Shown here in pieces: positions 100-64,000 of a stretch of 64,000 nt of DNA. Within the stretch, counting starts at the first letter, position 1. Every line of letters begins with the position of its first letter. The notes beneath the pieces were generated by a model. That model did not search any database, was not told the DNA's origin, and was given only the letters and a program-made list of their open reading frames with translations. Both the position numbers and the translations under genes were made by a program. Source of the DNA: Meghimatium bilineatum (lineage: Eukaryota > Mollusca > Gastropoda > Stylommatophora > Philomycidae); assembly GCA_034231615.1 (NCBI GenBank), contig CM067310.1, forward strand, positions 2,958,510 to 3,022,509. The letters are read 5' to 3'.

Positions 100-3000
100 C
101 TATTTGCTGGATCCAATTTGGACCTACAACGTTATATACATTATATTAGATTATATACATTTCTAAAGAAATTCAACAACGATTAAATTCACCAACTACT
201 AAATTCACATAAATTCATCTACTACTAAATTCACATAAATTCACCAACTACTAAATTCATATAAATTCATCAACTACTAAATTCATATAAATTCACCAAC
301 GATTAAATTCACATAAATTCACCAACTACTAAATTCACATAAATTCACCAACTACTAAATTCATATAAATTCACCAACTACTAAATTCATATAAATTCAC
401 CAACGACTAAATTCATATAAATTTACCAACGATTAAATTCATATAAATTCATCTACTACTAAATTCACCAACTACTAAATTCATATAAATTCACCAACTA
501 CTAAATTCATATAAATTTACCAACGATTAAATTCATATAAATTCACCAACTACTAAATTCACCAACTACTAAATTCATATAAATTCACCAACTACTAAAT
601 TCATATAAATTCACCAACGATTAAATTCATATAAATTCACCTACTACTAAATTCACATAAATTCACCATCGACTAAATTCACATACATTCACCAACGATT
701 AAATTCACAGAGATAATATTGTAATCATTGAATTGTTCCACCGCATATAACATTGCTATTAAACGTGTGTTAAATTGATTTTCCCGTAACCATATAACCT
801 TTCAGTGTTGCGGAGGTGCCACTCTGGAAACATCAACACAAATATACCACCATGTCTCCTTGTTCTCAATTCCTTGCTTAAGTGTGTAGATTCTTAATTC
901 TGTCCATTCTTTAATATTATCAATAAATACTTTCTTTTAACCCCCTCATCGCTCTTGTTCTTTTTCTTCCTAAACTGTTCATTGAAAGATAGTTTTGGGA
1001 AGAGAATCATGCCTCATAATGTGGCCAAACCACACAAGTTTGTGACATGACACCACTGCCATGAGATGTTCTTGTCAAACAACACAAGTTTGTGACTTTT
1101 TCCCACTGCCATGAGATGTTCTTGTCAAACCACACAAACTTGTGACATTTCACCACTGCTATGAGATGTTCTTGTCAAACCACACAAACTTGTGACATTT
1201 CAACACTGCCATGAGATGTTCTTGTCAAACCCCACAAGTTTGTGACATTTCACCACTGCCATGAGATGTTCTTGTCAAACCACACAAGTTTGTGACATTT
1301 CGCCACTGCCATGAGATGTTCTTGTCAAACAACACAAGTTTGTGACATTTCGCCACTGTCATGAGATGTTCTTGTCAAACCACACACGCTTGTGACATTT
1401 CAACACTGCCATGAGATGTTCTTGTCAAACAACACAAGTTTGTGACATTTCGCCACTGCCATGAGATGTTCTTGTCAAACCACACAAGTTTGTGACATTT
1501 CGCCACTGTCATGAGATGTTCTTGTTGATGAAATGTAACTTCTGTTTCACATCTGCCATCATTTGTGACTATGTGTCCAAATATTTGATAATGTTTTACT
1601 TGTTGTAGTTTCTCTCCATGTATGTTTATGTTTAGCTCTTGTTCCTCTGTGTCTTTGATGATTATCATGTTTTTTGTTGTTGTGGATATTTGTTGTCCAT
1701 ATTCATTAATTGATTTATTGACTTGATTTATTAGTCTTTGTAGTTCATGTTCACTTTCTGCTAAAAGAACAGTGCCTTTTGCATATCTCAGGTTGTTTAC
1801 TATTTTCCCAAAGATCTTGAGTCCTGTCATTCCTTCTATCTGTTTAAAGATATTTTCTGCGTAGATATTAAATAGGCTTGGTGATAAAATACATCCTTGT
1901 CTTACCCCTTTTCTTATTTCTATATATGGTGAGTATAGGTAGCTATTTCTTGAAGACATTTGATAAATATTTCATGTTGGACTCTGTCAAAGGCCTTGCT
2001 GTAGTCTATGAAGCAAATATAGATACTTTTTTGGACTTCTATATATTTATCTATCACTAGTCGGATACTCAGTATAGTTTCTCTGGTTCCTTTGTTTTTC
2101 CTAAAACCGAATTGTTCTTCACCGACCTCCATGTCTATCTTGTTCTTAATTCTTTCATGTATTATCTTGAGAAGTATTTTAGTTAGATGGCTCATTAGAC
2201 TTATTGTTCTATATTCTGTACAGTCCACAGCCCTGGGCTTCCTAGGTAGTGGTATGAATATTGATGATGTTAGGTCTTTAGGTATGTGGCCTGTTTCACA
2301 TATGTCATTGCAAAGTTCTGTGATAGTATCCACACCAAAATCATTTAGATTTTTTATTATGTCTGCTGTTATGTTGTCAGAGCCTTTTGACCTTTCCACA
2401 TTTTATTGATTTTATTGCATGTTCTACTTCTGCTTTCAGTATTGCTGGTCCACCATTGTTGTGTATTGTTGGTTTTTTGTTCCGTTGATCATTCTCACGT
2501 TCTTTCCAGGCTTAGGTTGCCGCACGTGTGGGTATATAGGCATATATATATAATAAATTTATAAAATAAATTTCAATCACAACTTATCAAATCGAACTCT
2601 GTTACATAAACATACCTCAGAGATAAACACTGTTACATAAACATATCTCAGATATATCAAATTAAACACTGTTACATAAACATACCTCAGAGATACGATA
2701 AAGGGCCAGTCACACGGACCAGTAAGTGTACCATCTAATATTCTGGACGATGGCTCCATGCTACCAAGTCCACAAGTCAGTGGAGGTGTCACTACAATAC
2801 CGTCCGGGTTTTTTACTGTCCCTTTTGGAGTAGATATTTATTGTAGCCATTAATGAATTTATATTGTCTTGAAAATTATATATATATATTTTATGAATGT
2901 TATAAAACTTGCAAGATGATACTTTTTGTTTATGTATTCTGCATGTATTTAACTTTGTCAAAAAATATTTTTCTCTCTTAAAAAAAAGTATGTAAATGAA

Positions 3001-6000
3001 AAATATCTGCGTTTTTACAAGGAATAATGCTCTTATTTTGTTTCACTTTAGCTAGTTTTCTGAAATGAAATATTCAGTATTGATACCACTTTAGTTAATT
3101 TATGCATTAAATGTTTGTAAAAAATATGCTCATTTCTTTCCAAAAATCATATTATATAGAAAAGGGTTATGAATGAACAAACATGTGTTGAAATGAAAAA
3201 AACATTTGTACGAAATTAGCAAACATTGGTTAGAAATGTTAGAAATGAACAAAGATTTGTTAGAAATGAACAATATGTGTTAAAAAAGTCAGAAATGAAA
3301 AAAAAACATTTGTAAGAAATTAGCAAACATTTATTAGAAATGAACAAATATGTGTTAGAAATGTTAGAAATGAACAAATATTTGTTAGAAATATTAGAAA
3401 TGAACAAATATTTGTTAGAAATGTTAGAAACGAACACATATTTGTTAGAAATGAACAAACATGTGAAAAAAACATCATCATCATCGCAGTCATTATACCA
3501 AACTTCACTTACCATTAGGGTAATACGGAAGGAGAGACCGGACTGTTTACTCTCATCTCCAGACCTACTACATTACTGCCAGGTCCGTAGATAAAGGGGA
3601 AGATGTTTAATATACCCCTCCCTTTCAACATCATTAAGTGCCGTCTCCGCAACGAAGGTTGGCTGCAACGGATCTCCAACATCCCCTGTTTGTTGTCTAG
3701 GTGGTGCATTCTGCTAGACTGTAACCTGTCCATCGTGTGATGTTACTCTCCCATTTGTATCTCTGCCTACCTCTTGCTTTACCTTCAAGTAAGGTCTTTA
3801 ATAAGGTCTTTTAAAATTTGGTCTTTTAATGTGACCCAAGTATTTTATTTGCCTGATCTTTATTTCTCTTAGTAATTCTTTCTTCATATTAAGTGTCTTT
3901 AGCACCTCTTTATTTGTTTTCTTCTCTTTCCATGATGTTCTCCCTATTCTTCTATATACCCACATCTCAAAGGCATCAATTCTGTCTTCTAATTGTTTAT
4001 TTATTGTCCATGTTTCTGAACCATACATTAATATATAATAGTTGTAGCATTTTATAATTCTCATTTTTAACTTGTTTGTAATTTGTTTAGATGTTAATAT
4101 TTTCCTCATGTCATTGACAGTACTTTTAGCTATTCCTATTATCCTTTTAACTTCCTCCCATTAGCAAATCGGAATATGGAATTTAGCACTAGAAACATGG
4201 CCAAAAGGTGGGTAAAAATTTAGCACTAGAAACATGGCTAAAAGGTGGGTAAAAATTTAGCACTAGAAACATGGCCAAAAGGTGGGTAAAAATTTAGCAC
4301 TAGAAACATGGCTAAAAGGTGGGTAATAATTTAGCACTAGAAACATGGCTAAAAGGTGGGTAAAAATTTAGCACTAGAAACATGGCTAAAAGGTGGGTAA
4401 TAATTTAGCACTAGAAACATGGCTAAAAGGTGGGTAAAAATTTAGCACTAGAAACATGGCCAAAAGGTGGGTAATAATTTAGCACTAGAAACATGGCTAA
4501 AAGGTGGGTAAAAATTTAGCACTAGAAACATGGCCAAAAGGTGGGTAAAAATTTAGCACTAGAAACATGGCTAAAAGGTGGGTAATAATTTAGCACTAGA
4601 AACATGGCCAAAAGGTGGGTAATAATTTAGCACTAGAAACATGGCTAAAAGGTGGGTAAAAATTTAGCACTAGAAACATGGCCAAAAGGTGGGTAATAAT
4701 TTAGCACTAGAAACATGGCCAAAAGGTGGGTAAAAATTTAGCACTAGAAACATGGCTAAAAGGTGGGTAAAAATTTAGCACTAGAAACATGGCTAAAAGG
4801 TGGGTAATAATTTAGCACTAGAAACATGGCTAAAAGGTGGGTAAAAATTTAGCACTAGAAACATGGCTAAAAGGTGGGTAAAAATTTAGCACTAGAAACA
4901 TGGCTAAAAGGTGGGTAAAAATTTAGCACTAGAAACATGGCTAAAAGGTGGGTAAAAAGCTCCAAAAATATTCCTCCTGATTATTTAGAAATTTTCACCA
5001 AAAGAGTCATACAACTTTACATTTATTAAACAAGACGACCTGTCACCCTAATACGCGTCAGTAATTGTTGTTGAGGTAAATCCCCCCTCCCCACTTCCGT
5101 TAAGATATCATATCTACGGCCCTAGTTCTTGATCACATTGCAACAATCTTTCAGAGCCCAGATTGGCCTCATCATCCATCTGAAGACTCACAGACAATCA
5201 AACCAAACTTGACATTTCTTAATGCCATGCATATCATCGCTTGCGGAGGAGGAACAACATTATCATCACCACTATCATCATGACTAACCATCATCATCAA
5301 CATTTTGATGTGCCCTTACCTTGTGCGTTGTTAGCACAGCATTTCTTGTCCACTGTTATACATCCAACATAATTCCGGTAGGGGGCGTACTCAAATGTTC
5401 CCGAAGGGCATGGGTCCCTTAAGCCAACACATACTCCACCGTACTTGAGCCTTGAATCACAGACTGAAAAAAATTAGTGGAGAAATACAAGTATTTTTAA
5501 TCAATCCCAGTTAAAATATTCAATTTGTCGTCTGTGCTTCTAGTCGTCGTCTGCGGTGCTGGGATTAATTTGGCTATATTCCTATTTTCATTAATCTTTT
5601 TTTTTTAAGGGAAACATCCCTTAGTAAATCAGAAAATGACTTTTCATTCTAGAATTTAGCAATAATTTTTTTAGCTAATAAAAAAAAAAAAAAATGGTCA
5701 AATATCCCCACACCCTGATTTCAGAGAAAAAGGTCACCAATAATCTCATGGTAAGTATGGAATTGCACACGAAAATGGGGAAATATTTTCTTTTTAAGTC
5801 AGATACGCTTTTCTTGCTGAAGACATATCTCAAGCCCTGGCCTTATTTAGATGTATTATATAGTCTGGGATTATCTGGTTGGTTTTTTTTCATAACAATC
5901 TGACGTGATCTCTAATATATAGGTGGTAACATTTGTCACTATTTCAACCATATACAGATGGCATATTCTTTCTAGAACCTGTTCTTCTTTATTATCCCCA

Positions 6001-9000
6001 TACATTTGTGTTTTCGGCTATAGCATTTAAATGCTTGTATGGCGTATATGACGGGACGACAGAAAAACCGCATGTAGATTCTTCTTCTTCTTCTTTCGTT
6101 CACTTGAAACATGTCTATATCTGTAATTCTGTCTCCTTAATAAAACTCACTGTCTTTTGTAGGTCATACAGTGTCCCATAGAGTTTTGATTCCAGTGTTG
6201 TTTCCTCTGGCCAATATGTCTGCCTCAGCGTTTCATGCTCAGAACACTATTGAAGTATATGTTTGGCACTCTGTGCTGCCTGTCCACATGTACACATGGC
6301 CGTGTTGCCAATCTTGAACTTTGTATACATGTGACTGCGGAGTCGGTTGTAGATAAAGAGTTTATTATAGCAATAATAATTCTGAATTTAATAGAATGGG
6401 GGTCTCTCGCGGTGTGGGTGAGTCATTCGCTTTGTGATTAAGGTGTTGTGGGTTTGTATCCGGCTAAAAAAGCCTTTTTATGTTGTATATTTTCTAGGTG
6501 ATCCCTGGCGATTATCAATTGAAGCTACGGAGTTACGTGCTGTTAGTGGTACTCTGGACTGGTGGTGTGCGACTGCGCTAAGAGGGACCAGGTATATAAG
6601 AGTTAACCATCGAAGCCGTAGATATGCTTCTGAAAAGTGGGAGGTGGGATGAGTTGCCTAAAAAATAAATGGTCATTTCCTACTTTTCGTGCAATTCTTT
6701 TTTAAGGAAAATTATTTTCTTATTTTTATGCAATTTTTTTTCGCGAGATTCTGGTGACTTTTTTAAGGAAAAACTATTAGGCGGGTTTCCTACTATTTGT
6801 ATTGCTTTCTCGTACAAAACTATTAGACGAGCTTCCTACTATTTGCATTGAATTTTCCTATAAAACTATTAGGCGGGTTTCATGCTATTTGTATTGAATT
6901 TTCCTATAAAACTATTAGACGAGTTTCCTACTATTTGTATTGAATTTTCCTATAAAACTATTAGACAAGTTTACTACTATTTGTATTGAATTTTCCTATA
7001 AAATTATTAGGCGGATTTCCTACTATTTGTATTGAATTTTCCTATAAAACTATTAGGCGGATTTCCTACTATTTGTATTGAATTTTCCTATAAAACTATT
7101 AGGCGGATTTCCTACTATTTGTATTGAATTTTCCTATAAAACTATTAAGCAGGTTTCATGCTATTTGTATTGATTTCTCGTACTAAATGTTATATTCTGA
7201 TTTCCTAAGAGTTTATGGAGTTTGAACCATCCCTCTCTCTTATCTACCGGCATGGCAACCATATTTACAATGAAGTTAATCTTCTATGTCTTTTCAAACC
7301 CTTGTGATATATCGGACTTAAATATAATGCATTGACTCACTGTATGTTTACACAAGCAGTCAGTATTACTACAGGAGGCAGTAGTTTAGAGCGGTGTTAC
7401 CACTGATGATTTATAAATAATCCCACATCACCCCGTAAAAAACACTCAGATAACCCCAGAATATATGATCCAATAGAAATAAGGTAATAAGGTCAGGTCA
7501 GTTGGTAATATACCTTTTAAAAGAAATGTGTCCATTTTCGGGAGCAATGAAATCGTTTTCATGAAACGTGGGGTGACCTTTTTCTTGGAAATCGGAAAAA
7601 TACCCTTTTTACAAAATACCTAGGTTTTTCTTTAAAATGTCCAGATTTGGGAAAAATTGGTTAAAATTAACTCCAGAAGACGGCCAAAAACGCCAGATCT
7701 AATTTAATAAAAAAAAAAAATGTGGCAACGCTAGTTTAAAGGTACACCAAATAGGCATATTTGAAAGCAAATTAAGTCTAACACGAATTTCAAACGTAAA
7801 ACACCTCAATGTTCTCGCTTGCCGTCTGTTTGCGCATACGATCACAGTGTTTACTCTGTGAGGTAACTGCAAACGAAAACTCAACAAAGGCGAAACAGAT
7901 TTTAGAAACATGTTCTGAAGTCGGGTGCTCTGACACACCCCGTGTGTACAGACCGTGTCCAAGGGTATGTTGATATTTGCTTGAGATCGTGTGTAGTCAG
8001 GCGTGATCACGCAGAAGTATCCGTCACACGTTCCAGGTATAAATTTATTCCTTTCCTGCGACTAAACCGTTCTTGTGAATTATCATCATCATTAATTGCC
8101 GTCTCCGCAACGAAGTTTGGCTGCAAGAAACATGTTCTTTAAGAAATATTAAGAGACACGACGGCATGAAGAGAGTGTTAATGGAGGGGATGATAGAAGG
8201 CAACAGGGGTAAAGGCCGACCAAGACGCCGTTGGACAAAAGACATTCAATAATGCCTGTGCATGTCACTAGAAGATGCAGAGCAACTTGCTCAAGACCGC
8301 GGAGAATTCAAGAGATCCATAGGAAAGACTACTTTCTGGAAAGAATATGTCACTTGATGATGAATTTCGTCTGTAACATTTGTTTTCAAAAGTCTATATT
8401 CTTCTTTCCATTTCTGCTGTAATTGTCCAACTCTCGCATCCGTATATAAGAATATGTATTATTATAAATTTATATAGTTTTATAATTTATATAGTTTTAT
8501 AATTTATATAGTTGTATAATTTATATAGTTTTATAATTTATATAGTTTTATAATTTATATAGTTTTATAATTTATATAGTTTTATAATTTATATAGTTTT
8601 ATAATTTATATAGTTTTATTTTCTCGGCTGTACTTATTCTATTCTGCTATATGGTCTTTACTCTAGACATTGCAGCACAGGCTATTTCAAGTCTTATTTA
8701 ACACTATTATATGCACTGCAATCTGAGTTCACAAAATATCAAATCACAAGCTATCGCATCCACGCTTTAATCCACGATTCCTAATAGCAATAAACAAATT
8801 ATTTCGTCACACCTTTGATCGTGCGAGTTTAACAACAGACATCTAGATACATGGACAAAAAAACGCATCACAATTAAAGGGTATTTCCTTCTGAATTTCT
8901 GCTATTGATCCAATTCTCACTAGGAGGTCTCTACTAGTCTTAGGGACAACATTCTACTAGTCTGAGGGACAGCATTCTACTAGTCTGAGGGACAACATTC

Positions 9001-11939
9001 TACTAGTCTTAGGGACAACATTCTACTAGTCTTAGGGACAACATTCTACTAGTCTTAGGGACAACATTCTAATAGTCTTAGGGACAACATTATACTAGTC
9101 TTAGGGACAACATTCTAATAGTCTGAGGGACAACATTCTACTAGTCTGAGGGACACCATTCTACTAGTCTTAGGGACAACATTCTACTAGTCTTAGGGAC
9201 AACATTCTACTAGTCTTAGGGACAACATTCTACTAGTCTTAGGGACAACATTCTACTAGTCTGAGGGACAGCATTCTACTAGTCTGAGGGACAACATTCT
9301 ACTAGTCTTAGGGACAACATTCTACTAGTCTTAGGGACAACATTCTACTAGTCTTAGGGACAACATTCTAATAGTCTTAGGGACAAGATTCTACTAGTCT
9401 TAGGGACAACATTCTAATAGTCTGAGGGACAACATTCTACTAGTCTGAGGGACACCATTCTACTAGTCTTAGGGACAACATTCTACTAGTCTTAGGGACA
9501 ACATTCTACTAGTCTTAGGGACAACATTCTACTAGTCTTAGGGACAACATTCTACTAGTCTTAGGGACAACATTCTACTAGTCTGAGGGACAACATTCTA
9601 ATAGTCTGAGGGACAACATTCTAATAGTCTGAGGGACAACATTCTACTAGTCTTAGGGACAACATTCTACTAGTCTTAGGGACAACATTCTACTAGTCTT
9701 AGGGACAACATTCTAATAGTCTGAGGGACAACATTCTACTAGTCTGAGGGACACCATTCTACTAGTCTTAGGGACAACATTCTACTAGTCTTAGGGACAC
9801 CATTCTACTAGTCTTAGGGACAACATTCTACTAGTCTTAGGGACAACATTCTACTAGTCTGAGGGACAACATTCTACTAGTCTGAGGGACAACATTCTAA
9901 TAGTCTGAGGGACAACATTCTAATAGTCTGAGGGACAACATTCTAATAGTCTGAGGGACAACATTCTAATAGTCTGAGGGACAACATTCTAATAGTCTGA
10001 GGGACAACATTCTAATAGTCTGAGGGACAACATTCTAATAGTCTGAGGGACAACATTCTAATAGTCTGAGGGACAACATTCTAATAGTCTGAGGGACAAC
10101 ATTCTAATAGTCTGAGGGACAGCATTCTAATAGTCTGAGGGACAACATTCTACTAGTCTTAGGGACAACATTCTACTAGTCTTAGGGACAACATTCTACT
10201 AGTCTTAGGGACAACATTCTAATAGTCTTAGGGACAACATTCTACTAGTCTTAGGGACAACATTCTAATAGTCTGAGAGACAACATTCTACTAGTCTGAG
10301 GGACGCCATTCTACTAGTCTTAGGGACAACATTCTACTAGTCTTAGGGACAACATTCTACTAGTCTTAGGGACAACATTCTACTAGTCTTAGGGACAACA
10401 TTCTACTAGTCTGAGGGACAACATTCTACTAGTCTGAGGGACAACATTCTAATAGTCTGAGGGACAACATTCTAATAGTCTGAGGGACAACATTCTACTA
10501 GTCTTAGGGACAACATTCTACTAGTCTTAGGGACAACATTCTACTAGTCTTAGGGACAACATTCTAATAGTCTGAGGGACAACATTCTACTAGTCTGAGG
10601 GACACCATTCTACTAGTCTTAGGGACAACATTCTACTAGTCTTAGGGACAACATTCTACTAGTCTTAGGGACAACATTCTACTAGTCTTAGGGACAACAT
10701 TCTTCTAGTCTTAGGGACAACATTCTACTAGTCTGAGGGACAACATTCTACTAGTCTGAGGGACAACATTCTAATAGTCTGAGGGACAACATTCTAATAG
10801 TCTGAGGGACAACATTCTAATAGTCTGAGGGACAACATTCTAATAGTCTGAGGGACAACATTCTAATAGTCTGAGGGACAACATTCTAATAGTCTGAGGG
10901 ACAACATTCTAATAGTCTGAGGGACAACATTCTAATAGTCTGTGGGACAACATTCTAATAGTCTGAGGGACAACATTCTACTAGTCTGAGGGACAACATT
11001 CTAATAGTCTGAGGGACAACATTCTAATAGTCTGAGGGACAACATTCTAATAGTCTGAGGGACAACATTCTACTGTATGAAGGACATCATTCTACAAGTT
11101 AGAAAACAAGTACTTCTGCAAGATATATTTTCTCTTTGACCACATACAGTGTTATTTCTATTGATGTATCCAACCTTGTCGTACTTTTCTTTGACTGGTG
11201 ACGTAAAGTGAACAATTATTCGTTACCAAATAGAGGGTCAACAACCAAAACGAGTGACGTGAGATCAGCACGCATAACTATTCTTTAGAAGGACTCGGCA
11301 AATATTGTACGTGAAATCCCGACTATTTTTGGTAAGTCGACTCTTTCTGTGACGTTTTACAAGCCCGTTAGGTATCCTTTTGTATATCTAGATGAAAATG
11401 AGTGAACACTTGTTTAGAACTAACTGAGACTTGGTGAGATAGTGTTTGACTGAATTTTTGATTTTGAAAAAAGCAGTGAAAAAAACACTGCCTTTGATCA
11501 CAGCAAGTCTGCAAGGACCAAGCAATGAAGGACTATCACAAAACCCAACTAACAGATAGGGACAGTCCGATCGAACAATCCTGAATTTGGACCACGGACA
11601 TGAAATGCTTGTCCACTTCCGCAGTTACAAGATAACAAGTGAGTGAAAAGTGAGTGAAAAGTAGACCAGTGAGTTAGAAATATGTAAGTAAACAAGTGTG
11701 AATTAGGTAAGTAGAAAATTGAGTGAGGAATAAACACATAGATTTAAATAGACATGAAGTATGACATATGCATAGAAGTGTTTAGTCGTACAGTATTGAG
11801 AGTATATACCAGCAAAAGAATGAAAGTGTTGTTGAAGTAAGAACGTCTGGTACTTACTTGGTGTCTGAAACATTGCCTGTCCAATCATACATGCTAGGAC
11901 AACCAATGTGACGATACTTGTGCAGTACATGTTGCTCAT
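13..11939 (-). CDS. Clip-like serine-protease homologue (pseudoprotease), N-terminal part, spliced
   Basis: Four exons join in phase: 11858-11939, 5320-5463, 2686-2821 and 13-99; the gene continues past base 1. About 150 residues are visible. Residues 1-22 form a signal peptide. Residues 29-70 carry six cysteines spaced C-x9-C-x6-C-x15-C-x6-CC, with GGVCVGLRDPC resembling the GxCVxLxxC core of arthropod clip domains. A linker with Cys92 leads to R102-ILDG, the usual trypsin-type activation cleavage. DWPFIVSLR and CAGTLIAPDWVLTSPVC follow, matching the WPWQVSLR and CGGTLI...WVLTAAHC blocks of S1 proteases. Cys131 and Cys147 are 16 apart, like chymotrypsin C42 and C58. The catalytic His57 position is Val146, so I infer an inactive, secreted serine-protease homologue. 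Family knowledge: such proteins act as cofactors in immune or coagulation cascades; that role is not shown here. A big-defensin-like knot is an alternative reading of the Cys module. Confidence 0.8.
175..708. repeat. Minisatellite, 26-bp unit
   Basis: AT-rich unit around TAAATTCATATAAATTCACC, about 20 variable copies, in the intron upstream of serine-protease homologue exon 4. Confidence 0.95.
780..2520 (-). mobile_element. Degraded RTE-like LINE, reverse transcriptase and C-terminus
   Basis: Minus-strand frames read SKGSDNITADIIKNL, EEQFGFRKNKGTRETI, the motif A-like block CFIDYSKAFDRVQHE and, after a frameshift, KGVRQGCILSPSLFNIYAE. The YADD catalytic box reads YAKG, so the copy is dead. 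The C-terminal KLVWFGHIMRHDSLPKTIFQ segment lies beyond an internal 50-bp tandem expansion (1022-1528). Confidence 0.9.
1022..1528. repeat. 50-bp tandem repeat inside a LINE ORF
   Basis: About ten copies of a 50-bp unit containing ATGAGATGTTCTTGTCAAAC. The unit is a piece of the LINE coding region (minus strand, VAKCHKLVWF), and single-copy LINE sequence lies on both sides. Confidence 0.93.
2577..2685. repeat. Short tandem repeat made from an exon-intron junction
   Basis: Two further copies of the 31-39 bp sequence around CTGAGGTATGTTTATG follow the donor of serine-protease homologue exon 3. Confidence 0.85.
2686..2821 (-). CDS. Serine-protease homologue exon 3 (linker, activation site, start of protease fold)
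   Basis: Encodes about 45 residues including TCGLGS, SSRILDGTL and PCDWPFIVSLR. The donor is CTGAG/GTATGT (phase 2). The acceptor (CCAAAAG/GG) has a weak pyrimidine tract, but it is the site that keeps phase 1 with the upstream exon. The donor is repeated three times in the next 110 bases (see findings). Confidence 0.78.
3205..3462. repeat. Minisatellite, about 15-30 bp unit
   Basis: Degenerate repeats of TTAGAAATGAACAAATATTT and shorter derivatives. Confidence 0.9.
3625..4160 (-). mobile_element. LINE 3' end
   Basis: The minus strand reads YGSETWTINKQLEDRIDAFE, MWVYRRIGRTSWKEKKTNKE and IKIRQIKYLGHIKR, the usual C-terminus of RT-encoding LINEs, followed by a 3' region with TTCGTTGCGGAGACGGCAC shared by several copies in the window. 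Confidence 0.88.
4172..4958. repeat. Minisatellite, 37-bp unit
   Basis: About 21 copies around TAGCACTAGAAACATGG, with two alternating variants (GCTAA/GCCAA and GGTAAAAA/GGTAATAA). Intron of the serine-protease homologue. Confidence 0.97.
4959..5319. other. Intron sequence, nothing recognised
   Basis: Non-repetitive intron ending in (CATCAT)n-like sequence at about 5260-5300. No ORF or element seen. Confidence 0.5.
5320..5463 (-). CDS. Serine-protease homologue exon 2 (clip-like six-cysteine module)
   Basis: The acceptor is TTTTTTCAG and the donor is G/GTAAGG; both edges are phase 1. The 48-residue module sits on one exon, as expected for a shuffled domain. Cysteines fall at residues 29, 39, 46, 62, 69 and 70 of the assembled protein, ending in an adjacent pair. 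GGVCVGLRDPC is the clip-like core. Confidence 0.8.
5464..6389. other. Intron sequence with A-tract
   Basis: A poly-A run at 5680-5693 and a TTC run near 6080. The short plus-strand ORFs here have no recognisable domain. Confidence 0.5.
6390..6620 (+). mobile_element. Possible decayed tRNA-derived SINE
   Basis: Has a B-box-like GGGTTTGTATCCGG with an A-box-like sequence about 50 bases upstream. The match is degenerate, so confidence is low. Confidence 0.3.
6768..7190. repeat. Minisatellite, about 46-bp unit
   Basis: About nine copies around TTTTCCTATAAAACTATTAG. Confidence 0.95.
7191..8084. other. Intron sequence, nothing recognised
   Basis: No repeats or convincing coding sequence. Contains a short A-run at about 7708. 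Confidence 0.45.
8085..8360 (+). mobile_element. LINE 3' end fragments
   Basis: 8088-8130 is the 3' terminus of the family seen at 3625-4160, in the other orientation on the same strand. From 8135 the plus strand reads RHDGMKRVLMEGMIEGNRGK then GRPRRRWTKDIQ, a LINE C-terminus. A stop follows, with more homology (LEDAEQLAQDRGEFK). Confidence 0.8.
8461..8618. repeat. Minisatellite, 17-bp unit
   Basis: About nine copies of ATAGTTTTATAATTTAT. Confidence 0.95.
8925..11077. repeat. Large minisatellite, 23-bp unit, with 299-bp higher-order structure
   Basis: About 93 copies of a 23-bp unit (CTAGTCTTAGGGACAACATT plus TCTA-type ends). Variants TTAGG/TGAGG, TACTAG/TAATAG and the rare GACACC are phased; GACACC-type marks at 9151, 9450, 9749, 10301 and 10600 are all multiples of 23 apart, mostly 299 (13 units). 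Within intron 1 of the serine-protease homologue. Confidence 0.97.
11100..11390 (+). repeat. Unclassified interspersed repeat R1, copy 1
   Basis: Shares GGCAAATATTGT, CTATTTTTGGTAA, TTTACAAG and TATCCTTTT in the same order and spacing with 57060-57350, and its last part with 25430-25560. No coding capacity seen. Confidence 0.65.
11391..11857. other. Intron sequence next to exon 1
   Basis: Two to three small GTGAGTGAAAAGT-like repeats near 11640; otherwise nothing recognised. Confidence 0.45.
11858..11939 (-). CDS. Serine-protease homologue exon 1 (signal peptide)
   Basis: Starts at the ATG at 11939 and encodes 27 codons plus one base, ending CCAA before a GTAAGTA donor (phase 1). The hydrophobic core TSIVTLVVLACMIG followed by GQA is a typical secretory signal. 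An in-frame ATG lies 19 codons upstream (11996), but starting there would bury the signal peptide, so the downstream start is preferred. The following intron is about 6.4 kb and contains a 2.15-kb minisatellite. Confidence 0.75.
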
Positions 11940-45600: not shown

Positions 45601-48600
45601 TGATCACAAAACTGGCCTCACATCACGTGGGGCATTCCCATAAGTGCTCCGCCCTCTGTTCCAGCAGCCACTTGACTCGATGGTGTTTCGAGTCTAATGC
45701 CGCCGGAACAGACGTCGACGTCAGGACACAACTCTGGCCCTTACAACAGGTTTCTTTGTTGTTTCGCCCATTCACACTGTGCCCGTAACTAGTTCAAGCA
45801 CAACGTTGGCCTGTCAGAACAATATGGTAACTGTTATCGAAGGTTACGACTACGGGATTGTATAGATGACGTGTCATGAAGCTTCTATAAGAAGATAACC
45901 TCAATATAAAGGCATGTCATTTACTAAGGTTTTCTGTTGCATGGTTGGTTTTTCTAGTGAGCCATTGATGAGACCCACAGACACAACCGATTCCACCAAT
46001 TTGGTACCGAACGACCTTTATCGCCGATCATCCTACATGCAAATATTCTGTAGTCTTTTGTTATTTATATGCTAGTTTTGTTTCGTCTCCATCTTATGTT
46101 TCTTGTTTTAGATTTTCAATGATCATATAGGATAGTACTGTTCTTTATTCATCGTGTGCTATGTTAATTTCTTGATAAAGGCCTTTGGGTCGAATAATCG
46201 ACTGATCAATTTATGATATTTGCTATGTGATTTTTTAGTAATTACGTGTGCTGCCGGGACTTGGGTGGGGAGCAAACAATAGCACCACTATTTACGTTAC
46301 ATAAATGTTGTTAGAGGCGACTAAGTTTGAGGTGTAGTTGACTTTCCAACCCATATTTAGGGTCAAAGTGTCCCAGAAGCCATGCTGAACTCGAATCTGT
46401 CAGGATGAAAGGGGCAGATATCGCTACTAAGCTGTAAACCATGGGGGAAAAACGCATTACGTTCTCTGGACAGCATCCTGATAATCTGCAGGAAGAGAGA
46501 ACGAACGTCAAAGAAGAAGAAGAAAAACATCGTTCAAGTTTTCGCCTGTCGAATTACAATTTTTCTGCTGTTTAACCAAGTGAAATATTAAATGTCTGAG
46601 TTTTTACAGTGGAATCCCTCTATACCGCATCCTTTTATAACAAATGTCCCGATATAACAACACTTCTCAAAGTCACCAATTATATTTATTGTATATTGTT
46701 TGTACTGTATATGGCAAATTTCTGTTATTACATATTTATTTCGTTGGTTGTCAATATGTTGTTATAACGGGATTTGACTAATGTCTAACTAATAATTTAT
46801 ACAGTACACACCGGCGTCAAGTTTGTAATAGAGTTACTGAGGAAGAGAACCTTCTACGTCCTCAACACCATCGTTCCAGTGGTGATGCTGTCACTGCTCA
46901 ACGTTCTGGTCTTTCTGTTGCCTGCCAGCTCTGGTGAGAAGATGGCACTGGCGGTTACTGTCTTATTATCCTTCACGGTGTATCTTAGTATCATCAGCGA
47001 AGTCATGCCACGGACATCAGAGAGTGTCTCTATTCTTGGTGAGTATTTGGTAGAGAATGTCTCTATTCTTGGTGAGTATTTGGTAGATTAGTATTGTCTC
47101 AGTGTTAACGTATGGTAGTGAAAGCTGGAAATCAACTCAAGCAACAGACAACAAACTAAACAGCTTCGAAAGCAAATGTCTTCGCAAACTGATGAACATA
47201 AAATGGAGCGACTTCGTAGCAAATAGTGATCTAAGAGACAAAACACACCAAGAGTATGTTTCAAACATCATAAGAAAACGAAGATGGACATACCTTGGTC
47301 ACATTTTACGACTAGATGTAAACAGAATAAACCAACAAGCCTTTATGTGGTCACCTGAGGGTAAAAGAAAAATAGGAAGACCTAAAACAACTCGTAAAAA
47401 CACCATTCTTAAAGAAGGGGAATTAATAGGCTGTTAGACCATGCAGGAACTAAAGCCGCAGGCAGCGGACCGCATCATATGGAGAACCAAAACCTCTGCC
47501 CTATGTGTCGCTTGCGGCACGAAAGGAACAAACTAACTAACTAATTAGGTAGAGATTGTCTCTATTCTTGGTGAGTATTTGAGAGAGAAGATGTATTGAC
47601 TTCCGGATGTTCCGGATTGTGAAAGAGTCGGTTGTCACTTAAAATAGACGGGATTTCACGTGCAATATTTGACAAGGCATTCTCCAAATAGTCATGTGTG
47701 CTGTTCTCACTCAGCATCACGGATCTTGGCCGATGTGACCGATCATAGGTAGTTGCTGTATACTTTGCGTCGCTAGCCAAAGAAAAGCATGGAAAAGTCG
47801 GATATATCAAGATACGCGAGGCTACATGAGATTAGCGTGGAGAAACTAAATGTTCTAGAGAAGTACTTGTTTTCTAGCTTATTACAAGTGAGAATGTGGT
47901 CAACACGGGAAGTCCCGAAGGAAACAACCCTTAAATGTGATGCGTATCTGGTCCATGTATCTACACGGCTTTGGAATATCTCTATTCTATTAAAGCTGGA
48001 TTGGGTCAAAGGGCATGAGCCCATGGACCGCTGGATCAGCAACCATTAACGCTGGAAGAAAGGAATTGTTGAAAAATGTTTAATCTCTTGATATTTTGTA
48101 GAGATGAGTCTTTGGGGATATGAGTCTTTGGAGAGTTGAGTCTTTGGAGAGATGAGTCTTTGGAGAGTTGAGTCTTTGGAGAGTTGAGTCTTTGGAGAGA
48201 TGAGTCATTTCCATTTGTTGTCTGTTGAATCTGTTGTGAGTGCTCTATTTGTTGTCTGTTTAATCTGTTGATAGTTCTCTATTTGTTGAATCTATTGAGA
48301 GCACTCTATCTGTTGTCTGTTAACTCTATCGAGCGTGTTTTTATGATCTTGCAACAATTATATGACAAGAAATATAAAAAAAAACGTGTTAAAAAAAGAC
48401 TTACGTGTTCTACCATGGATTCTTGTAGTAACAGTCCAGACATCTAAATTTAAGCTTCCGTTCTCTGGAGACTCGTGGTCTATCGACAGAAATGCGGCTT
48501 CTTGATACCATTTAGTGTTTGCGTCACTGCGAGAGGATATGCCGTACTTTTCATGGATTGAGGACAGTAGCCTCACACAGTATAATAGTGTGAGTGAGAG

Positions 48601-49373
48601 AGTTTCTGTTGATAAGTCACGAGAAGGCCTCGGTAGAGCGGATGTTTACCTTTAGCTATCTAGTCTTTCTCCTCCGTGACCAGAAATCTATTGATCAAAT
48701 ATAAGCCTAATGTTTTCCTTTATAAGTTTAAAGATATAACCTGTCTTTCTTAATTGTGATCAGCTTTCCTAATGATAATTGTCTCTCTTTCTCTTCAGCG
48801 GTGTACCTGACGACACTTCTCACCTTGAGTACGATGTCTGTCCTGAGTTCTGGAGTCGTCATGAACATGATTCACCACGAAACAGACAAACCTGTACCAG
48901 TCTGCCTCAGATGGTTAGTCTGTTGCAGACTACGGCATATCAGAAAACAGCTCAACAAGGGAAGAGTCCACAAAAGAAGTAGTTTTCGTAAATCCAGACA
49001 TCAGGAGCAGCATAGTCCTCCGGAAGATAACCCTGAAGATTATACAGAAAAGTTATGGTCAGACCACGAGTTCAACAACGAGAAACACTCAGGCTACGAG
49101 AATGAAATTATCCAGATGTTTTCAGATTCTGACTGCGCAAACACTGACCAACATCAAATTGGTACTCAGGAATCCAGCATAGACGCCAAACATGTGCATC
49201 ACAATTTCACACAATTTGAAGGTAGACAAAAAGCTGAAAGATGCCCAGATGAGTGGTCACTAATCACGTGGGTGGACGTTGGAAGTGCTGTAGACACTTT
49301 ACTTTTCTGGGTATTTCTGGGATTTACTGTAACGTCTACAATGATTGTACTGATATTATTTTCTGCCCCGTAA
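27559..49373 (+). CDS. Nicotinic-type Cys-loop ligand-gated ion channel subunit, complete, 8 exons
   Basis: Join 27559-27625, 35035-35177, 36959-37003, 40019-40128, 41327-41522, 44989-45100, 46805-47038, 48799-49373: 1482 nt, 493 aa plus stop, all phases consistent. Signal peptide at 1-22. Extracellular domain: loop D NWCDEFLHW (Trp87), loop A WLPDLLVEN (114-121 region) and the Cys loop C156-x13-C170 with YPFD. M1 begins at RTFYVLN (about 239). M2 is GEKMALAVTVLLSFTV (268-283), with Glu at -1' and 20', the signature of a cation-selective channel. M3 is in exon 8, then an acidic intracellular loop, with M4 to the C-terminus. There is no vicinal Cys pair in loop C (GPYYYPSTY), and Glu replaces the loop A Tyr. 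It is thus a non-alpha or orphan-ligand subunit of the plasma membrane. The ligand is unknown. Confidence 0.94.
27683..27800. repeat. 22-bp tandem repeat
   Basis: Five copies of CATAACATGTGGCGTTGTTT, starting about 60 bases after channel exon 1. Confidence 0.93.
27900..28065. repeat. 40-bp tandem repeat
   Basis: Four copies around TTAAACATATCCGATATCA. Confidence 0.95.
28165..28555. repeat. 27-29 bp repeat carrying a consensus 5' splice site in each unit
   Basis: Fourteen units of TGCGGGTAAGTATATCTTTT-type sequence. All but one have GGGTAAGTAT, and six are preceded by a pyrimidine run and CTAG. Channel intron 1. Confidence 0.96.
28680..28905 (+). mobile_element. LINE RNase H fragment
   Basis: RSAWGFTAQCAGKTIRKESG and AFAVTASSMVM match the RNase H domain of the copy at 38095-38857 (RSSWAFTAQRWGETIREESG). 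Confidence 0.85.
28906..29609. other. Channel intron 1, nothing recognised
   Basis: Two related blocks near 29080-29110 and 29190-29225 (GTACTATAAGGA/GTGCTATATGAA) suggest an old duplication. Confidence 0.4.
29610..29892. repeat. 46-bp tandem repeat
   Basis: Six copies around GTTGTAGGTCCTTGAAAGCT. Confidence 0.95.
30252..30480. repeat. Simple and short tandem repeats
   Basis: (GGAT)n at 30252-30292, then GATA/GGTA-rich sequence with a 40-bp block repeated twice at 30400-30475. Confidence 0.85.
30690..31170. repeat. 21-bp tandem repeat
   Basis: About 14 tight copies of GAGTGGACGGCAAGTCGTTAT and diverged copies to 31170. Because 21 is a multiple of three it gives long false ORFs on both strands. 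Confidence 0.96.
31622..31690 (-). mobile_element. tRNA-like SINE head
   Basis: The minus strand has GCGCATCAGTGGTTTAGAAA (A-box region) and TGGTTCAAATCCCA (B box). Confidence 0.6.
31722..31888 (+). mobile_element. SINE-2 copy
   Basis: GGATGTGTTGGGCCATTGGC to (GAA)n at 31872-31886. Confidence 0.9.
31890..32110. repeat. Degenerate 24-bp tandem repeat
   Basis: Copies of TTTATCCAATCCACTAATAC. Confidence 0.85.
32111..33544. other. Channel intron 1, mostly unrecognised
   Basis: (AT)n at 32984-33004 and a 12-bp repeat AAAGATAATACT at 33098-33136. The ORF near 32351-32686 shows no domain. Confidence 0.45.
33545..33828 (-). mobile_element. tRNA-derived SINE with intact B box
   Basis: On the minus strand, a tRNA-like head with AGTTGATAGTGAGC and the exact B box GGTTCGAAACC, then a body of about 200 bp ending in CTTTACCTTTT. 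Confidence 0.85.
33880..34210. repeat. Irregular tandem repeat with a SINE fragment inside
   Basis: Copies of AAGTTTTCAGTCAAACGTTT. 33955-34065 interrupts them with a diverged SINE-1-like block (CGCCTTTTAGGCCTAGCACA). Confidence 0.8.
34280..34590 (+). mobile_element. Possible LINE 3' end
   Basis: RTRWVEKINET and a terminal RLTAQAK resemble the 3' end at 15040-15240; weak. Confidence 0.4.
34600..34705. repeat. GATA/GGAT simple repeats
   Basis: Interrupted ATAGATAGATGAATGGATGG-type sequence. Confidence 0.85.
35035..35177 (+). CDS. Channel subunit exon 2 (N-terminal helix and first strand)
   Basis: The acceptor is AATTTTCAG and the donor CTG/GTTAGT (phase 0). Contains DVSRLHSDLFRNYRREIPPV and ends FLLMIHDL, matching the LxxxLxxxYxxxxRPV and ...xIxDVDE segments that open nicotinic subunits. 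Confidence 0.92.
35283..35453 (+). mobile_element. SINE-2 copy with target-site duplication
   Basis: Inserted in a 23-bp array. GAATGACATAG occurs immediately before the element and again right after its (GAA)n tail. Confidence 0.92.
35460..35733. repeat. 23-bp/19-bp tandem repeat
   Basis: Copies of CGCAGGATTGAATGATAAGA. One copy lies on the other side of the SINE at 35272. Confidence 0.95.
35745..36125 (-). mobile_element. LINE 3' fragment
   Basis: KIETARCREN-type and RIPRRKWIEGVTADLR on the minus strand match the 14815-15290 copy. RT C-terminal sequence continues to about 36125. Confidence 0.7.
36185..36345. repeat. 13-bp tandem repeat
   Basis: About 12 copies of CAAGATTGTGTTT. Confidence 0.97.
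36420..36600 (-). mobile_element. LINE fragment
   Basis: The minus strand reads LLYRSETWTSYY-like RT C-terminal sequence; decayed. Confidence 0.5.
36755..36865. repeat. About 31-bp repeat
   Basis: Four copies around GACATATGCATATACCATC. Confidence 0.85.
36959..37003 (+). CDS. Channel subunit exon 3 (45-nt exon)
   Basis: Exactly 45 nt, phase 0 on both sides, CTATCAG acceptor and GTG/GTAAGT donor. Encodes DMKNQVLTTSGWLNV, equivalent to the DEKNQ-LTTNVWLK segment; the exon size is the one usual for this position in nicotinic receptor genes. Its 3' part together with the donor has been amplified into the array that follows directly. Confidence 0.93.
36976..37570. repeat. 43-bp minisatellite built from channel exon 3 and its donor
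   Basis: About 12 tight and two diverged copies. Each holds the last 27 bases of exon 3 (AACAACGAGTAGATGGTTG...) and the first 16 intron bases, GTAAGTTAAATTAAAC. Confidence 0.97.
37785..37905 (+). mobile_element. SINE body fragment
   Basis: CACCCTGAACATGAC through CTTTATCACA to CCTCCCTGCAAG matches the body of the tRNA-SINE at 51270-51480. Confidence 0.65.
38095..38857 (+). mobile_element. 5'-truncated LINE with RNase H domain, target-site duplication
   Basis: Reads to 38685 as one frame: IVIYTDGSVERHIRSSWAFT, SLTIEILAVTKALQWV, ACILSDSMNM and FVPGLAGVRGNERNLV. The first three RNase H acidic residues (D, E, D) are present, but the final NERAD Asp is lost. Stops follow, then EHLWTCPEC and an (ACTA)n tail. 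ATTCAGCACT flanks both ends. Confidence 0.92.
38985..39715 (+). mobile_element. Decayed LINE RT C-terminus
   Basis: FHYLGNII-like, RRIELAKQV, then from 39370 CVYIED*R*RE...LLQEIKIQQIKYC and the shared 3' end SKRRWHLMMM with (GAT)n. An internal part is missing. Confidence 0.75.
40019..40128 (+). CDS. Channel subunit exon 4 (loops D and A)
   Basis: The acceptor is CTCTGACAG and the donor AATAC/GTAAGT (phase 2). Encodes NWCDEFLHWNSSEYGGVE and VWLPDLLVEN, the canonical W-x-D...L-x-W and VWxPD strands. The aromatic residue normally found four residues after the loop A Asp is Glu. Confidence 0.92.
40482..41108. repeat. 33-bp minisatellite
   Basis: About 19 copies of CGTCCTGCCAGGGATGTAAT plus CACAGGATCATCA. 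An 11-codon unit, so it is open on both strands (SRPARDVITGS/GRDDPVITSLA). Confidence 0.96.
41135..41216. repeat. 18-bp tandem repeat
   Basis: Four to five copies of AGATCTATTGACCTATTC, about 110 bases before channel exon 5. Confidence 0.93.
41327..41522 (+). CDS. Channel subunit exon 5 (Cys loop, loop B)
   Basis: The acceptor is TTTAACAG and the donor GTACAG/GTGTGT (phase 0). It carries CEVNIGKYPFDYQKC, the diagnostic 13-residue Cys loop, then KFLTWMHTNKTLDVQ, in which the loop B Trp is kept but the usual TYD that follows is MHT. Confidence 0.95.
41523..42004. other. Channel intron 5, G-rich tracts and 19-bp repeat
   Basis: G runs at 41658-41667 and 41690-41790. Four copies of TTATGGATGTGAAGTTGTT at 41857-41935. 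Confidence 0.7.
42005..42301 (+). mobile_element. SINE-1 copy (full length)
   Basis: GTGTGTTGCCGGGGCCTGAA to (GAA)n at 42287-42301. The best-preserved copy here. Confidence 0.94.
42302..43139. other. Channel intron 5, unrecognised
   Basis: An A-run at 42372-42391. A plus-strand ORF at 42568-42840 has a hydrophobic C-terminal half but no domain, start context or conserved flanks that I can point to. Confidence 0.4.
43140..43245. repeat. 27-bp tandem repeat
   Basis: Four copies of CATAACTCTCCGATGTGTGG. Confidence 0.95.
43378..43415 (+). mobile_element. SINE-1 5' end, truncated at an array
   Basis: GTGTGTTGCCTTGGCCCAAA and GGGAAGCAATGAATAGC match the first 40 bases of SINE-1; the array begins where the element would continue. 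Confidence 0.75.
43413..44262. repeat. 38-bp minisatellite
   Basis: About 22 copies of GCACTGTTATCTTCATGTAA plus TGAGCTCTCGGTGTGGGA, with two copies carrying a CCTCCTTTAACGCCC variant. Confidence 0.96.
44340..44640 (+). mobile_element. I/Nimb-like LINE 3' end
   Basis: LEHIKRQQIKWFSHASRLP, HRHDGYKARGRSC and ISRELFYS; the same family as 62050-62760. Confidence 0.88.
44989..45100 (+). CDS. Channel subunit exon 6 (loop C region)
   Basis: The acceptor is TTTATAG and the donor ACAG/GTTAGT (phase 1). Encodes NGEWDIISAVAGPYYYPSTY; the GEWD motif is typical, but the alpha-type CC pair is absent. Confidence 0.9.
45101..45339. other. Channel intron 6, nothing recognised
   Basis: Unique sequence. Confidence 0.4.
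45340..45830 (-). mobile_element. LINE 3' region
   Basis: (AATC)n at 45340-45348. The minus strand has KWLLEQRAEHLWECPT-type sequence at 45640-45690, like the copy at 52830-53330. Confidence 0.65.
46245..46525 (+). mobile_element. SINE-1 copy (diverged)
   Basis: GTGTGCTGCCGGGACTTGGG through GCCATGCTGAACTCG to (GAA)n at 46513-46526. Confidence 0.88.
46607..46780. mobile_element. Pogo/Tigger-like MITE, copy 2
   Basis: TA-CAGTGGAATCCCTCTATA start and TTGTTATAACGGGATTTGACTA end. Same layout as 22317-22500; lies about 25 bases before channel exon 7. Confidence 0.75.
46805..47038 (+). CDS. Channel subunit exon 7 (M1-M2)
   Basis: Encodes M1 and the pore-lining M2 (GEKMALAVTVLLSFTV... EVMP). Acceptor TTTATACAG, donor CTTG/GTGAGT, phase 1 on both sides. 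A second identical donor lies 33 bases on, in frame, and would add 11 residues before M3. A pogo-like MITE ends only about 25 bases upstream of the exon. Confidence 0.95.
47039..47085 (+). repeat. Duplicated 5' splice site of channel exon 7
   Basis: TCTCTATTCTTG/GTGAGTATTT is repeated 33 bases on. A third copy is at 47558-47580, beyond a LINE insertion. Confidence 0.95.
47090..47545 (+). mobile_element. LINE 3' end with (ACTA)n tail
   Basis: LTYGSESWKSTQATDNKLNS, FESKCLRKLMNIKWSDFVAN and RRWTYLGHILRLDVNR, then RKIGRPKTTRKN and a CAACTAACTAACTAA tail. Separates copies 2 and 3 of the duplicated splice donor. Confidence 0.9.
47581..48798. other. Channel intron 7 remainder
   Basis: 48004-48047 repeats the motif GGTCAAAGGGCATGAGCCC also seen at 16891. 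A 16-bp repeat GAGTCTTTGGAGAGAT lies at 48105-48205. Otherwise nothing recognised. Confidence 0.6.
48799..49373 (+). CDS. Channel subunit exon 8 (M3, cytoplasmic loop, M4, stop)
   Basis: The acceptor is CTCTTCAG. Encodes M3 (AVYLTTLLTLSTMSVLSS), a loop of about 120 residues with VCLRWLVCCRLR next to the membrane and many acidic and His residues, the pre-M4 segment ITWVDVGSAVDTLLFWVF, and M4 ending LILFSAP then TAA. No AATAAA is obvious in the next 100 bases. Confidence 0.94.
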
Positions 49374-51230: not shown

Positions 51231-51269
51231 CATTTACTATACAGTGTTTATTTTAGTTTTTTTTTTACT

Positions 51270-51480: not shown

Positions 51481-51599
51481 TTTGGCATTTTGACTATAGA
51501 GATAATAAAAGAAATATGTACGTAAACAATCAAGTAAGGAATCCAGCATGTACACAAGAATCACTACGTTCAATGGCAAAACAACAAAAACATGTGCTG

Positions 51600-51760: not shown

Positions 51761-52005
51761 ATCTAATGTAGTACCCCTATATCTAATGTAGTACCCCTAT
51801 ATCTAATGTAGTACCCCTATATCTAATGTAGTACCCCTACATCTAATGTAGTACCCCTACATCTAATGTAGTACCCCTAAATCTAATGTAGTACTACCTA
51901 CATATAATGTAGTACTCCCTACATCTAATGTAGTACCCCTACATATAATGTAGTACTTCCTACATATAATGTAGTACTTCCTACATATAATGTAGTACCC
52001 CTACC
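51760..52005. repeat. 20-bp tandem repeat
   Basis: About 12 copies of ATCTAATGTAGTACCCCTAT. Confidence 0.96.
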
Positions 52006-52169
52006 ACCCTGATGGGTTGGGTTTATGAATGAATAAATGAATGAATGAATGAATGAATGAATTTTAGAAAAAAATGACAACATATCATATTATTTTTTGA
52101 ACCAAGATTTAATTAAAAAAAATACACATTTATTTATTTTAAAATGTATACATATCTGTTCATGCACCG

Positions 52170-52830
52170 ATACACACCAACAAGGAGTCTTGTTCATGCA
52201 CCGATACACACCAACAAGGAGTCTTGTTCATGCAGTGATACACACCAACAAGGAGTCTTGTTCATGCATTGATACACACCAACAAGGAGTCTTGTTCATG
52301 CAGTGATACACACCAACAAGGAGTCTTGTTCATGCAGTGATCCAAACCAATGAGGAGTCTTGTTCATGCAGTGATACACACCAACAAGGAGTCTTGTTCA
52401 TGCAGTGATACACACCAACAAGGAGTCTTGTTCATGCATTGATACACACCAACAAGGAGTCTTGTTCATGCAGTGATACACACCAACAAGGAGTCTTGTT
52501 CATGCATTGATACACACCAACAAGGAGTCTTGTTCATGCAGTGATACACACCAACAAGGAGTCTTGTTCATGCAGTGATACACACCAACAAGGAGTCTTG
52601 TTCATGCAGTGATCCAAACCAATGAGGAGTCTTGTTCATGCATTGATACACACCAACAAGGAGTCTTGTTCATGCAGTGATCCAAACCAATGAGGAATCT
52701 TGTTCATGCATTGATACACACCAACAAGGAGTCTTGTTCATGCAGTGATCCAAACCAATGAGGAGTCTTGTTCATGCAGTGATACACACCAACAAGGAGT
52801 CTTGTTCATGCATTGATACAAACCTGAGAA
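52170..52830. repeat. 34-bp minisatellite
   Basis: About 19 copies of CAACAAGGAGTCTTGTTCAT with the variant CCAAACCAATGAGG at intervals. Confidence 0.96.
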
Positions 52831-53330
52831 TCTTATTTCCTGATTAAGAACAAGCATCACAACACTGAGGACATTCCCATATATGCTCTGCTTGCTGTTC
52901 AGTCAGCCATCTAAAAGTGTATAAGCTCAGTGTCCTAGTCAGTTTCTGATTACACATTCTTCTGATCTTTCCAGAGAGGGAGCACTTTCTCCCATCACTT
53001 CTAGTCACTCCCATTTCTACCATTCTCAGAATATATACATTGTCTCCTATGACCTCCTCCTCATCTTCTTGTTTGGTATCCATGACTGCTCTAATAAATA
53101 CAATCCTGTCTCTTCTTATCTCTGTGCAGTTCACCAAGGAATCTTAATTCTGTCCAGTCTTTACTTCAATCAATCTATACTTTCCTTCGACAACCTCTTG
53201 TTCATCTACCCTAAACGGTTCCCTGCAAGATATTTTTGAAAAGAGAATCATTCCTCATCACGTGGCTAAACCACACGAGTTTGCAATGCCTCACCACTGC
53301 AATGAGATGTTCTTGTTGGCCTGCAAAAGT
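52830..53330 (-). mobile_element. Two LINE 3' fragments
   Basis: 52844-53137 reads CNQKLTRTLSLYTFRWLTEQ then QAEHIWECPQC (RNase H type LINE end). 53150-53330 reads HCKLVWFSHVMRNDSLFKN (RTE-like, the unit that is tandemly amplified at 1022-1528). Confidence 0.82.
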
Positions 53331-53417
53331 ATTTATTTTCCTTCCCATGTTTATGTCGGTTTTAAGGAATTGGTATGCACTTTGGTGAAATATATATCCA
53401 TGGTTTTAACAATCACA

Positions 53418-53423
53418 TTTATT
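53418..53423 (-). promoter_or_regulatory. Candidate polyadenylation signal of the ABCC gene
   Basis: AATAAA on the minus strand about 45 bases downstream of the stop codon. Seen only as a hexamer match. Confidence 0.4.
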
Positions 53424-53465
53424 CTGAACAACCACTCAATTTAAACTTAAAATATCATCCTTGAA

Positions 53466-64000
<10,535 letters not shown>

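Follow-up and report, generated by a model that had tools for sequence, protein, structure and literature searches.

Minisatellites that straddle splice junctions have been described in lancelets as 'mirages'. The amphioxus mirages are minisatellite-like tandem duplications at both 5' and 3' exon-intron boundaries, known in Adh3, in the globin genes BflGb6 and BflGb9 and in TnC, with similar repeats in PGBD5, and they show length instability, the copies at the boundaries being excluded from homogenisation (PMC3087553, PMC3902484). The two BflGb6 haplotypes carry 3 and 6 repeat units, somatic instability is reported at Adh3, and in lancelets data on Adh3 and the globins suggest that splicing is undisturbed by mirages (PMC3087553). 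Related cases are an interferon-induced transcript whose minisatellite contains multiple splice donors (from a title cited in PMC2572611), and the gain of introns by tandem genomic duplication of AGGT segments (PMC3443670).

The stretch of DNA analysed here, called the window, covers 64,000 nucleotides (C13:2958510-3022509) of an animal nuclear genome of 1.61 Gb in 32 contigs, and contains trypsin-like, nAChR-like and ABCC-like genes. Exons were located by tblastn, together with open frames judged by eye. An earlier note on this DNA had assigned about 18 exons to the window; homology and inspection by eye gave only 14, together with the final bases of a fifteenth, and 26 usable junctions. Six exons are nAChR-like (plus strand), six ABCC-like (minus) and two trypsin-like (minus), and the partial fifteenth belongs to the ABCC-like gene, which runs on to ~107.2 kb in window coordinates, beyond the window, with some of its exons not found. 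A PDB search with one frame of 53401-64000 gave no match, and the listed ABCC exons sit in the other two frames. The exons are as follows.

13-123, minus strand: trypsin-like exon (HVCAGTLIAPDWVLTSPVC), weak tblastn match plus splice sites
2686-2775, minus strand: part of a trypsin-like exon (RILDGTLTGPCDWPFIVSLR), open frame judged by eye; its acceptor could not be fixed, and this acceptor was excluded from the counts
36959-37003, plus strand: nAChR-like exon (DMKNQVLTTSGWLNV), tblastn, AG and GT checked
40019-40128, plus strand: nAChR-like exon, tblastn, edges without an array within 30 bp
41327-41522, plus strand: nAChR-like exon, tblastn, edges without an array within 30 bp
44989-45100, plus strand: nAChR-like exon, by eye, edges without an array within 30 bp
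46805-47038, plus strand: nAChR-like exon with transmembrane segments, tblastn
48799-49373, plus strand: last nAChR-like exon, tblastn, open frame and by eye
53475-53577, minus strand: last coding exon of the ABCC-like gene, tblastn; the coordinates are those of the homology match, and the exon continues beyond 53475 to its stop
56150-56344, minus strand: ABCC exon of the second nucleotide domain (NBD2), tblastn
58061-58227, minus strand: ABCC exon, tblastn
60126-60284, minus strand: ABCC exon (Walker A), tblastn
61662-61808, minus strand: ABCC exon, tblastn, no array within 30 bp
62917-63018, minus strand: ABCC exon, tblastn

Four related ABCC exons lie on one strand of the same contig, ~90-200 kb apart (C13:2612172, 2702087, 2815685 and 3014658), pointing to a probable tandem gene family around the window. 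Several other elements were seen by eye. Open-frame fragments resembling the reverse transcriptase of a non-LTR retrotransposon, with the C-terminal tail, occur at 1378-2402, 3801-4160, 47087-47434 and 62306-62734, and a 200-aa open frame at 38083-38685 (IVIYTDGSV...) resembles a retrotransposon RNase H domain. A repeated short element, found on both strands (31675-31855, 35289-35402, 60336-60501) with a translation like ...CVGPLAQIKRRHNAFPFSGLHP..., is possibly a SINE-like repeat. Elsewhere, near a chromosome end, a COX1-like stretch (L102, C2:121989805-121990428) contains five TGA codons, which suggests an invertebrate mitochondrial code. This stretch may be molluscan, and is either mitochondrial DNA copied into the nucleus or a piece of the mitochondrial genome that entered the assembly.

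The earlier note had flagged seven places where tandem arrays meet exon edges, and each was examined by direct sequence reading and with TRF. The arrays concerned are listed below.

2595-2695, minus strand: array crossing the donor at 2685, TRF period 39, 3 copies, spacing 31-39 bp
36976-37561, plus strand: array crossing the donor at 37004, TRF 43 bp x 13.9, 28 exon bases inside
47019-47087, plus strand: duplication crossing the donor at 47039, TRF 33 bp x 2.1, 20 exon bases
53594-54752, minus strand: array before the acceptor at 53578, TRF 38 bp x 30.5, its edge at the 17th intron base
55937-56159, minus strand: array crossing the donor at 56149, TRF 39 bp x 5.7, 10 exon bases
60013-60120, minus strand: array at the donor at 60125, TRF, 26-bp unit
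63042-63390, minus strand: array near the acceptor at 63019, TRF 27 bp x 13.1, units holding the first exon bases (ATGACCATGTCCC)
63380-63424, minus strand: longer copy of the intron end and first exon bases, with the pyrimidine tract, at the far end of that array

At all four donors named (2685, 37004, 47039 and 56149), the tandem unit indeed holds the exon end and the donor, by sequence and by TRF. The array at 2685 (exon end 2686) includes 10 exon bases, with copies at +39 (no GT) and +70 (GT), while at 37004 every one of the 13 downstream copies keeps its GT, 12 of them scoring 5.8, the same as the true donor, and one scoring 6.8. The 33-bp duplication at 47039 is in frame and open. The other three places agreed in part. 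At acceptor 63019 the 27-bp unit does hold the first ~12-14 exon bases after the AG, but 23 intron bases separate the array from the exon; its inner units match the acceptor sequence except that 22 bp, among them the pyrimidine tract, are missing, and the longer copy at 63380-63424 is a possible decoy acceptor. At acceptor 53578 the intron end with its AG (TTATAATATCTCCAG) is repeated in the units, but these contain no exon bases. The array at donor 60125 adjoins the donor, but in TRF it starts at the sixth intron base and not at the first. Arrays of up to about 30 copies beside exons were confirmed by the 30.5 copies at 53594-54752. It is hardly credible that such arrays are assembly artefacts, as they occur at unrelated loci on many chromosomes, their units have diverged, and copy numbers differ between paralogues.

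Tandem arrays are dense in this region. TRF gave 121 rows in the window, which merged into 73 arrays that occupy 32.5% of it, and in the focal 264 kb (the window plus 200 kb flanks) 251 merged arrays occupy 25.6%. Array edges have a density of 1.5 per kb in the focal region vs 0.29 per kb around the chaperonin exons (L042-L081), about a five-fold difference. Two arrays are very long and almost perfect, suggesting recent expansion: 8930-11099 (23 bp x 94) and 58242-59589 (42 bp x 32, with a 419-bp higher-order period), the latter having its edge at the 15th intron base before the acceptor of the ABCC exon 58061-58227.

To set the arrays at exon edges against chance, 65 focal junctions were placed (31 donors and 34 acceptors; 26 in the window and 39 outside), on the basis of homology and a splice-site score, most of them chosen with the arrays in view. 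A junction was counted when an array edge fell within -45..+60 bp of it, and the local background was taken from array edges at distances of 61-240 bp within the same introns. As a result, 23 of the 65 junctions had an array edge in the zone vs 10.6 expected (ratio 2.17, P=0.01), and a within-intron shuffle over 30 introns, which hold 60 of the 65 junctions, gave 12.8 expected vs the 23 seen (P=0.00025). The 39 focal junctions outside the window contributed 13 of these cases (P=0.066 against the local background). A null of random regional places was also tried; it was judged too generous, since arrays are denser in these introns than on average across the region, and the local background and the shuffle replaced it. 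With TRF cut-offs of score at least 50 and period at least 8, and relative to random regional places, array edges lay within -6..30 bp of 9 focal junctions vs 2.1 expected and within 31-60 bp of 8 vs 1.7, and 6 of the 65 were crossed by at least 8 exon bases vs 1.9. In the window, such overlaps of at least 8 exon bases exceeded chance, as had been proposed (4 of 26 junctions vs 0.78, P=0.007), but the window had been chosen for this very pattern.

Four further exon sets from elsewhere in the genome, comprising 133 exons and 256 junctions, were measured in the same way. Array edges were found at 6 of 40 junctions for 20 copies of an ABCC exon (5.9 expected), at 2 of 76 for 40 chaperonin exons (2.4 expected), at 7 of 74 for 39 ABC transmembrane exons (5.2 expected), and at 11 of 66 for 34 nAChR-family exons (3.3 expected; 3.3-fold, P=0.019). 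Pooled, the four sets gave 26 of 256 vs 16.9 expected (ratio 1.54, 0.90-2.64, P=0.08), and with the focal set 49 of 321 vs 27.8 (ratio 1.76, 1.18-2.65, P=0.004). A reading of no excess elsewhere, drawn from the ABCC, chaperonin and ABC sets (14 vs 13.5, ratio 1.04), was given up when addition of the nAChR family brought the ratio to 1.54.

The chaperonin set consisted of 40 of 51 rows, with 4 long or intronless-looking rows and the last 7 excluded; the ABC transmembrane set of 39 of 84 rows and the nAChR-family set of 34 of 142 were taken mostly in list order from rows with no internal stops and no very long open frames. Junctions were dropped for the donors of 4 chaperonin, 4 ABC and 2 nAChR exons and for the acceptor of one trypsin exon. 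Chaperonin junctions and those of L084-L086 were placed by score alone, the rest by judgement, and the acceptor of L095 was shifted from +13 to the exon-nearest copy at +43, by which it became a counted case. The sets contain related copies, which are not independent observations: L137 and L143 code for one and the same stretch of protein, and L025, L026, L027 and L039 are related. All of these stayed in the counts, except where related ABCC copies are stated to be counted once. Within an open-access library, the search terms used retrieved no comparable count of arrays at splice junctions.

Thus the excess of arrays at junctions is modest, uneven among gene families and not dramatic. The earlier note had judged the association far above chance. 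The 2.2-fold focal excess agrees with it in direction, but with 1.5-fold (0.9-2.6) at 256 junctions elsewhere the phrase was overstated, and it is too strong because arrays are dense; once their density is accounted for, a striking local pattern falls to ~1.5- to 2-fold. For a 'habit at exon edges' the evidence is mixed, with an excess in the nAChR family (11 of 66 vs 3.3) but none in the chaperonin (2 of 76 vs 2.4) or the two ABC sets (13 of 114 vs 11.1).

One explanation is that exon edges are truly favoured, either because duplication starts there more often, through replication or transcription stress linked to splice sites, or because arrays touching an exon last longer, as selection holds the exon copy constant and this copy keeps re-seeding the array. 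The focal counts under both nulls, the nAChR family and the 1.76-fold excess over all sets speak for it, as does the exon copy at 37004, which differs from the array units. On the other side, the 190 junctions of the ABCC, ABC and chaperonin sets gave no clear excess (15 vs 13.5 expected), the focal part was picked for the pattern, and most boundaries were chosen with arrays in view. We regard favoured edges as a tentative reading, with the odds somewhat against it.

The reading we prefer, with a probability of roughly 0.7, is that these are 'mirage'-type minisatellites, in which ordinary tandem duplications of ~30-50 bp chance on exon edges and then expand and contract like other arrays. Duplications would fall in introns rich in arrays, largely irrespective of where the exon edges lie, and overall the edges are struck roughly one to two times as often as expected. 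The proposal that a segment containing a splice site can be duplicated in tandem and go on to form an array is supported, and matches the published lancelet mirages.

We next compared donors with acceptors, using tests devised after the data were seen. A detector scored a junction when the 22 bases spanning it recurred within 200 bp of intron. A null sampling every intron position was dropped because positions inside long arrays inflate it; the control used instead consisted of intron 22-mers that are the exon-ward first copy. Focal donors were copied in 7 of 31 cases vs 1.0 expected (Poisson P=8e-5) and donors elsewhere in 4 of 123 vs 5.5, so it is the focal genes that account for the donor surplus. 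Acceptors were copied in 0 of 34 focal cases vs 3.8 expected, and in 2 of 133 elsewhere vs 4.5. In total, intron copies of the junction were found for 11 of 154 donors vs 2 of 167 acceptors (Fisher P=0.009), against expectations of 6.5 for donors (P=0.07) and 8.3 for acceptors (P=0.011). TRF showed the same direction: crossings by at least 8 exon bases were found at 6 of 31 focal donors and 0 of 34 focal acceptors (P=0.009), and array edges at or inside the exon vs 1-30 bp into the intron numbered 13:5 for donors and 4:12 for acceptors (P=0.015; P=0.03 with related ABCC copies counted once). The earlier suggestion that selection tolerates extra copies of splice sites therefore fits donors but not acceptors.

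Boundaries of both kinds can be crossed by arrays, donors more often. Donors also lie inside a tandem unit at L101, L138 (where a 34-bp array sits at the donor of an exon similar to 41327-41522) and L145, and acceptors are crossed at L095 (30-bp unit, open in frame) and L139 (36-bp unit). Positions 190-310 of L095 hold about four copies of the acceptor, spaced 30 bp apart, and the frame stays open through the last ones; each alternative acceptor would thus lengthen a membrane segment by ten residues. Arrays with an edge 6-27 bp short of an acceptor, of which there are 7 in the focal region and 5 elsewhere, are not predicted by chance.

These observations can be put into a candidate mechanism, whose splicing steps we infer from sequence. 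When an array crosses a donor, the first copy, joined to the exon, would stay in use, so the extra donors would be harmless and persist. When it crosses an acceptor, intact copies upstream of the true one would compete, and such arrays would therefore mostly be removed. Surviving acceptor arrays would be those whose units do not extend past the AG, those from which the acceptor signal has gone (63019, and L135, whose units by eye are like the exon head, seemingly without CACCAG), and those with units divisible by three, which could keep the frame (L095, 30 bp; L139, 36 bp). Against such a purge, units that carry the acceptor AG, which occur at 53578, L089, L095, L113 and L139, include some with few exon bases (53578, L089, L113), and at L089 (55-57 bp) and L113 (40 bp) not every unit length is divisible by three.

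Blind placement may be incomplete as an account, because focal donors reached 7 of 31 vs 1.0 and the nAChR set 3.3-fold. A fuller version would have donors crossed freely, up to a dozen equal ones in a row, acceptor crossings purged unless the signal is lost or the frame kept, and exon-anchored arrays outlasting others, giving a true excess in some families. We hold this version tentatively, at rather less than even odds. If it is true, the minisatellites here amount to a natural experiment on how splice sites are chosen: real exons followed by a series of equal donors would allow a direct test of the 'first donor wins' rule, and the donor/acceptor asymmetry would be a quantitative prediction about splice-site recognition.

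The arrays could also serve splicing, with extra donors recruiting U1 or marking alternative exons. Consistent with this, all 13 donor copies at 37004 are still strong, and a C. elegans minisatellite is over-represented near regions of alternative splicing (PMC4039745). Elsewhere copies are weaker or damaged: 4 of 5 at 56150 score 2.8-3.2 vs 6.5, GT is missing from 3 of 9 copies at 87402, 1 of 2 at 2686 and 1 of 2 at L101 (where the other scores 1.6 vs 4.7), and 16 of 21 copies of the exon at 56150 have no array at that donor. A splicing role is thus improbable.

That NBD2 exon allowed array and intron to be followed across paralogues. A genome search gave 45 rows, of which 22 were full-length including the window's; 21 were examined (the window's and 20 others), leaving out C3:9176140 (59% identity) and partial rows. 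In the 20 fetched copies AG was in place in all, and GT in 19, with GC in L037. The donor unit is 39 bp in the window; L025, L026, L027 and L039 share another of ~32 bp, whose copy number differs among these paralogues, and 16 of the 21 have no TRF array. Similar nAChR exons also have unrelated donor units by eye, in the window (37003) vs L151 and in L145 vs L146. Since splice positions are constant while arrays differ among the copies, the arrays at the NBD2 exon are younger than the introns, and arrays arise repeatedly at one place and turn over.

The earlier note had further linked the arrays to tandem duplications that create or move introns. The mechanism is a published one (PMC3443670; a globin model in PMC3087553), and the units carry complete donors. 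Across the 21 copies of this one exon, introns were not confined to duplication-bearing copies: splice positions do not differ between copies that carry arrays and copies that lack them, 16 copies having no donor array, and hence the arrays did not create or move those introns. On the evidence of this one exon, the creation or movement of introns is a very improbable account of the arrays.

In comparison with known systems, intron gain from AGGT segments shares with our arrays the tandem duplication of a segment carrying a splice signal, but in that process a piece of exon is duplicated and a new intron results (PMC3443670). Here, at the NBD2 exon, splice positions are independent of the array. 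The interferon-induced transcript, which we take to be 6-16 (G1P3/IFI6), is likened by title only: it too has a tandem repeat giving several splice donors, but in one transcript. As with the amphioxus mirages, the tandem units here span exon-intron boundaries, at donors and acceptors, and the arrays appear to be the same in kind. The differences are that the mirages considered are cases in single lancelet genes, whereas here, in another animal, junction arrays run to 14-30 copies, and junctions drawn from several chromosomes were set against a background rate. What had been a lancelet curiosity now recurs on several chromosomes of another animal, with a measured background.
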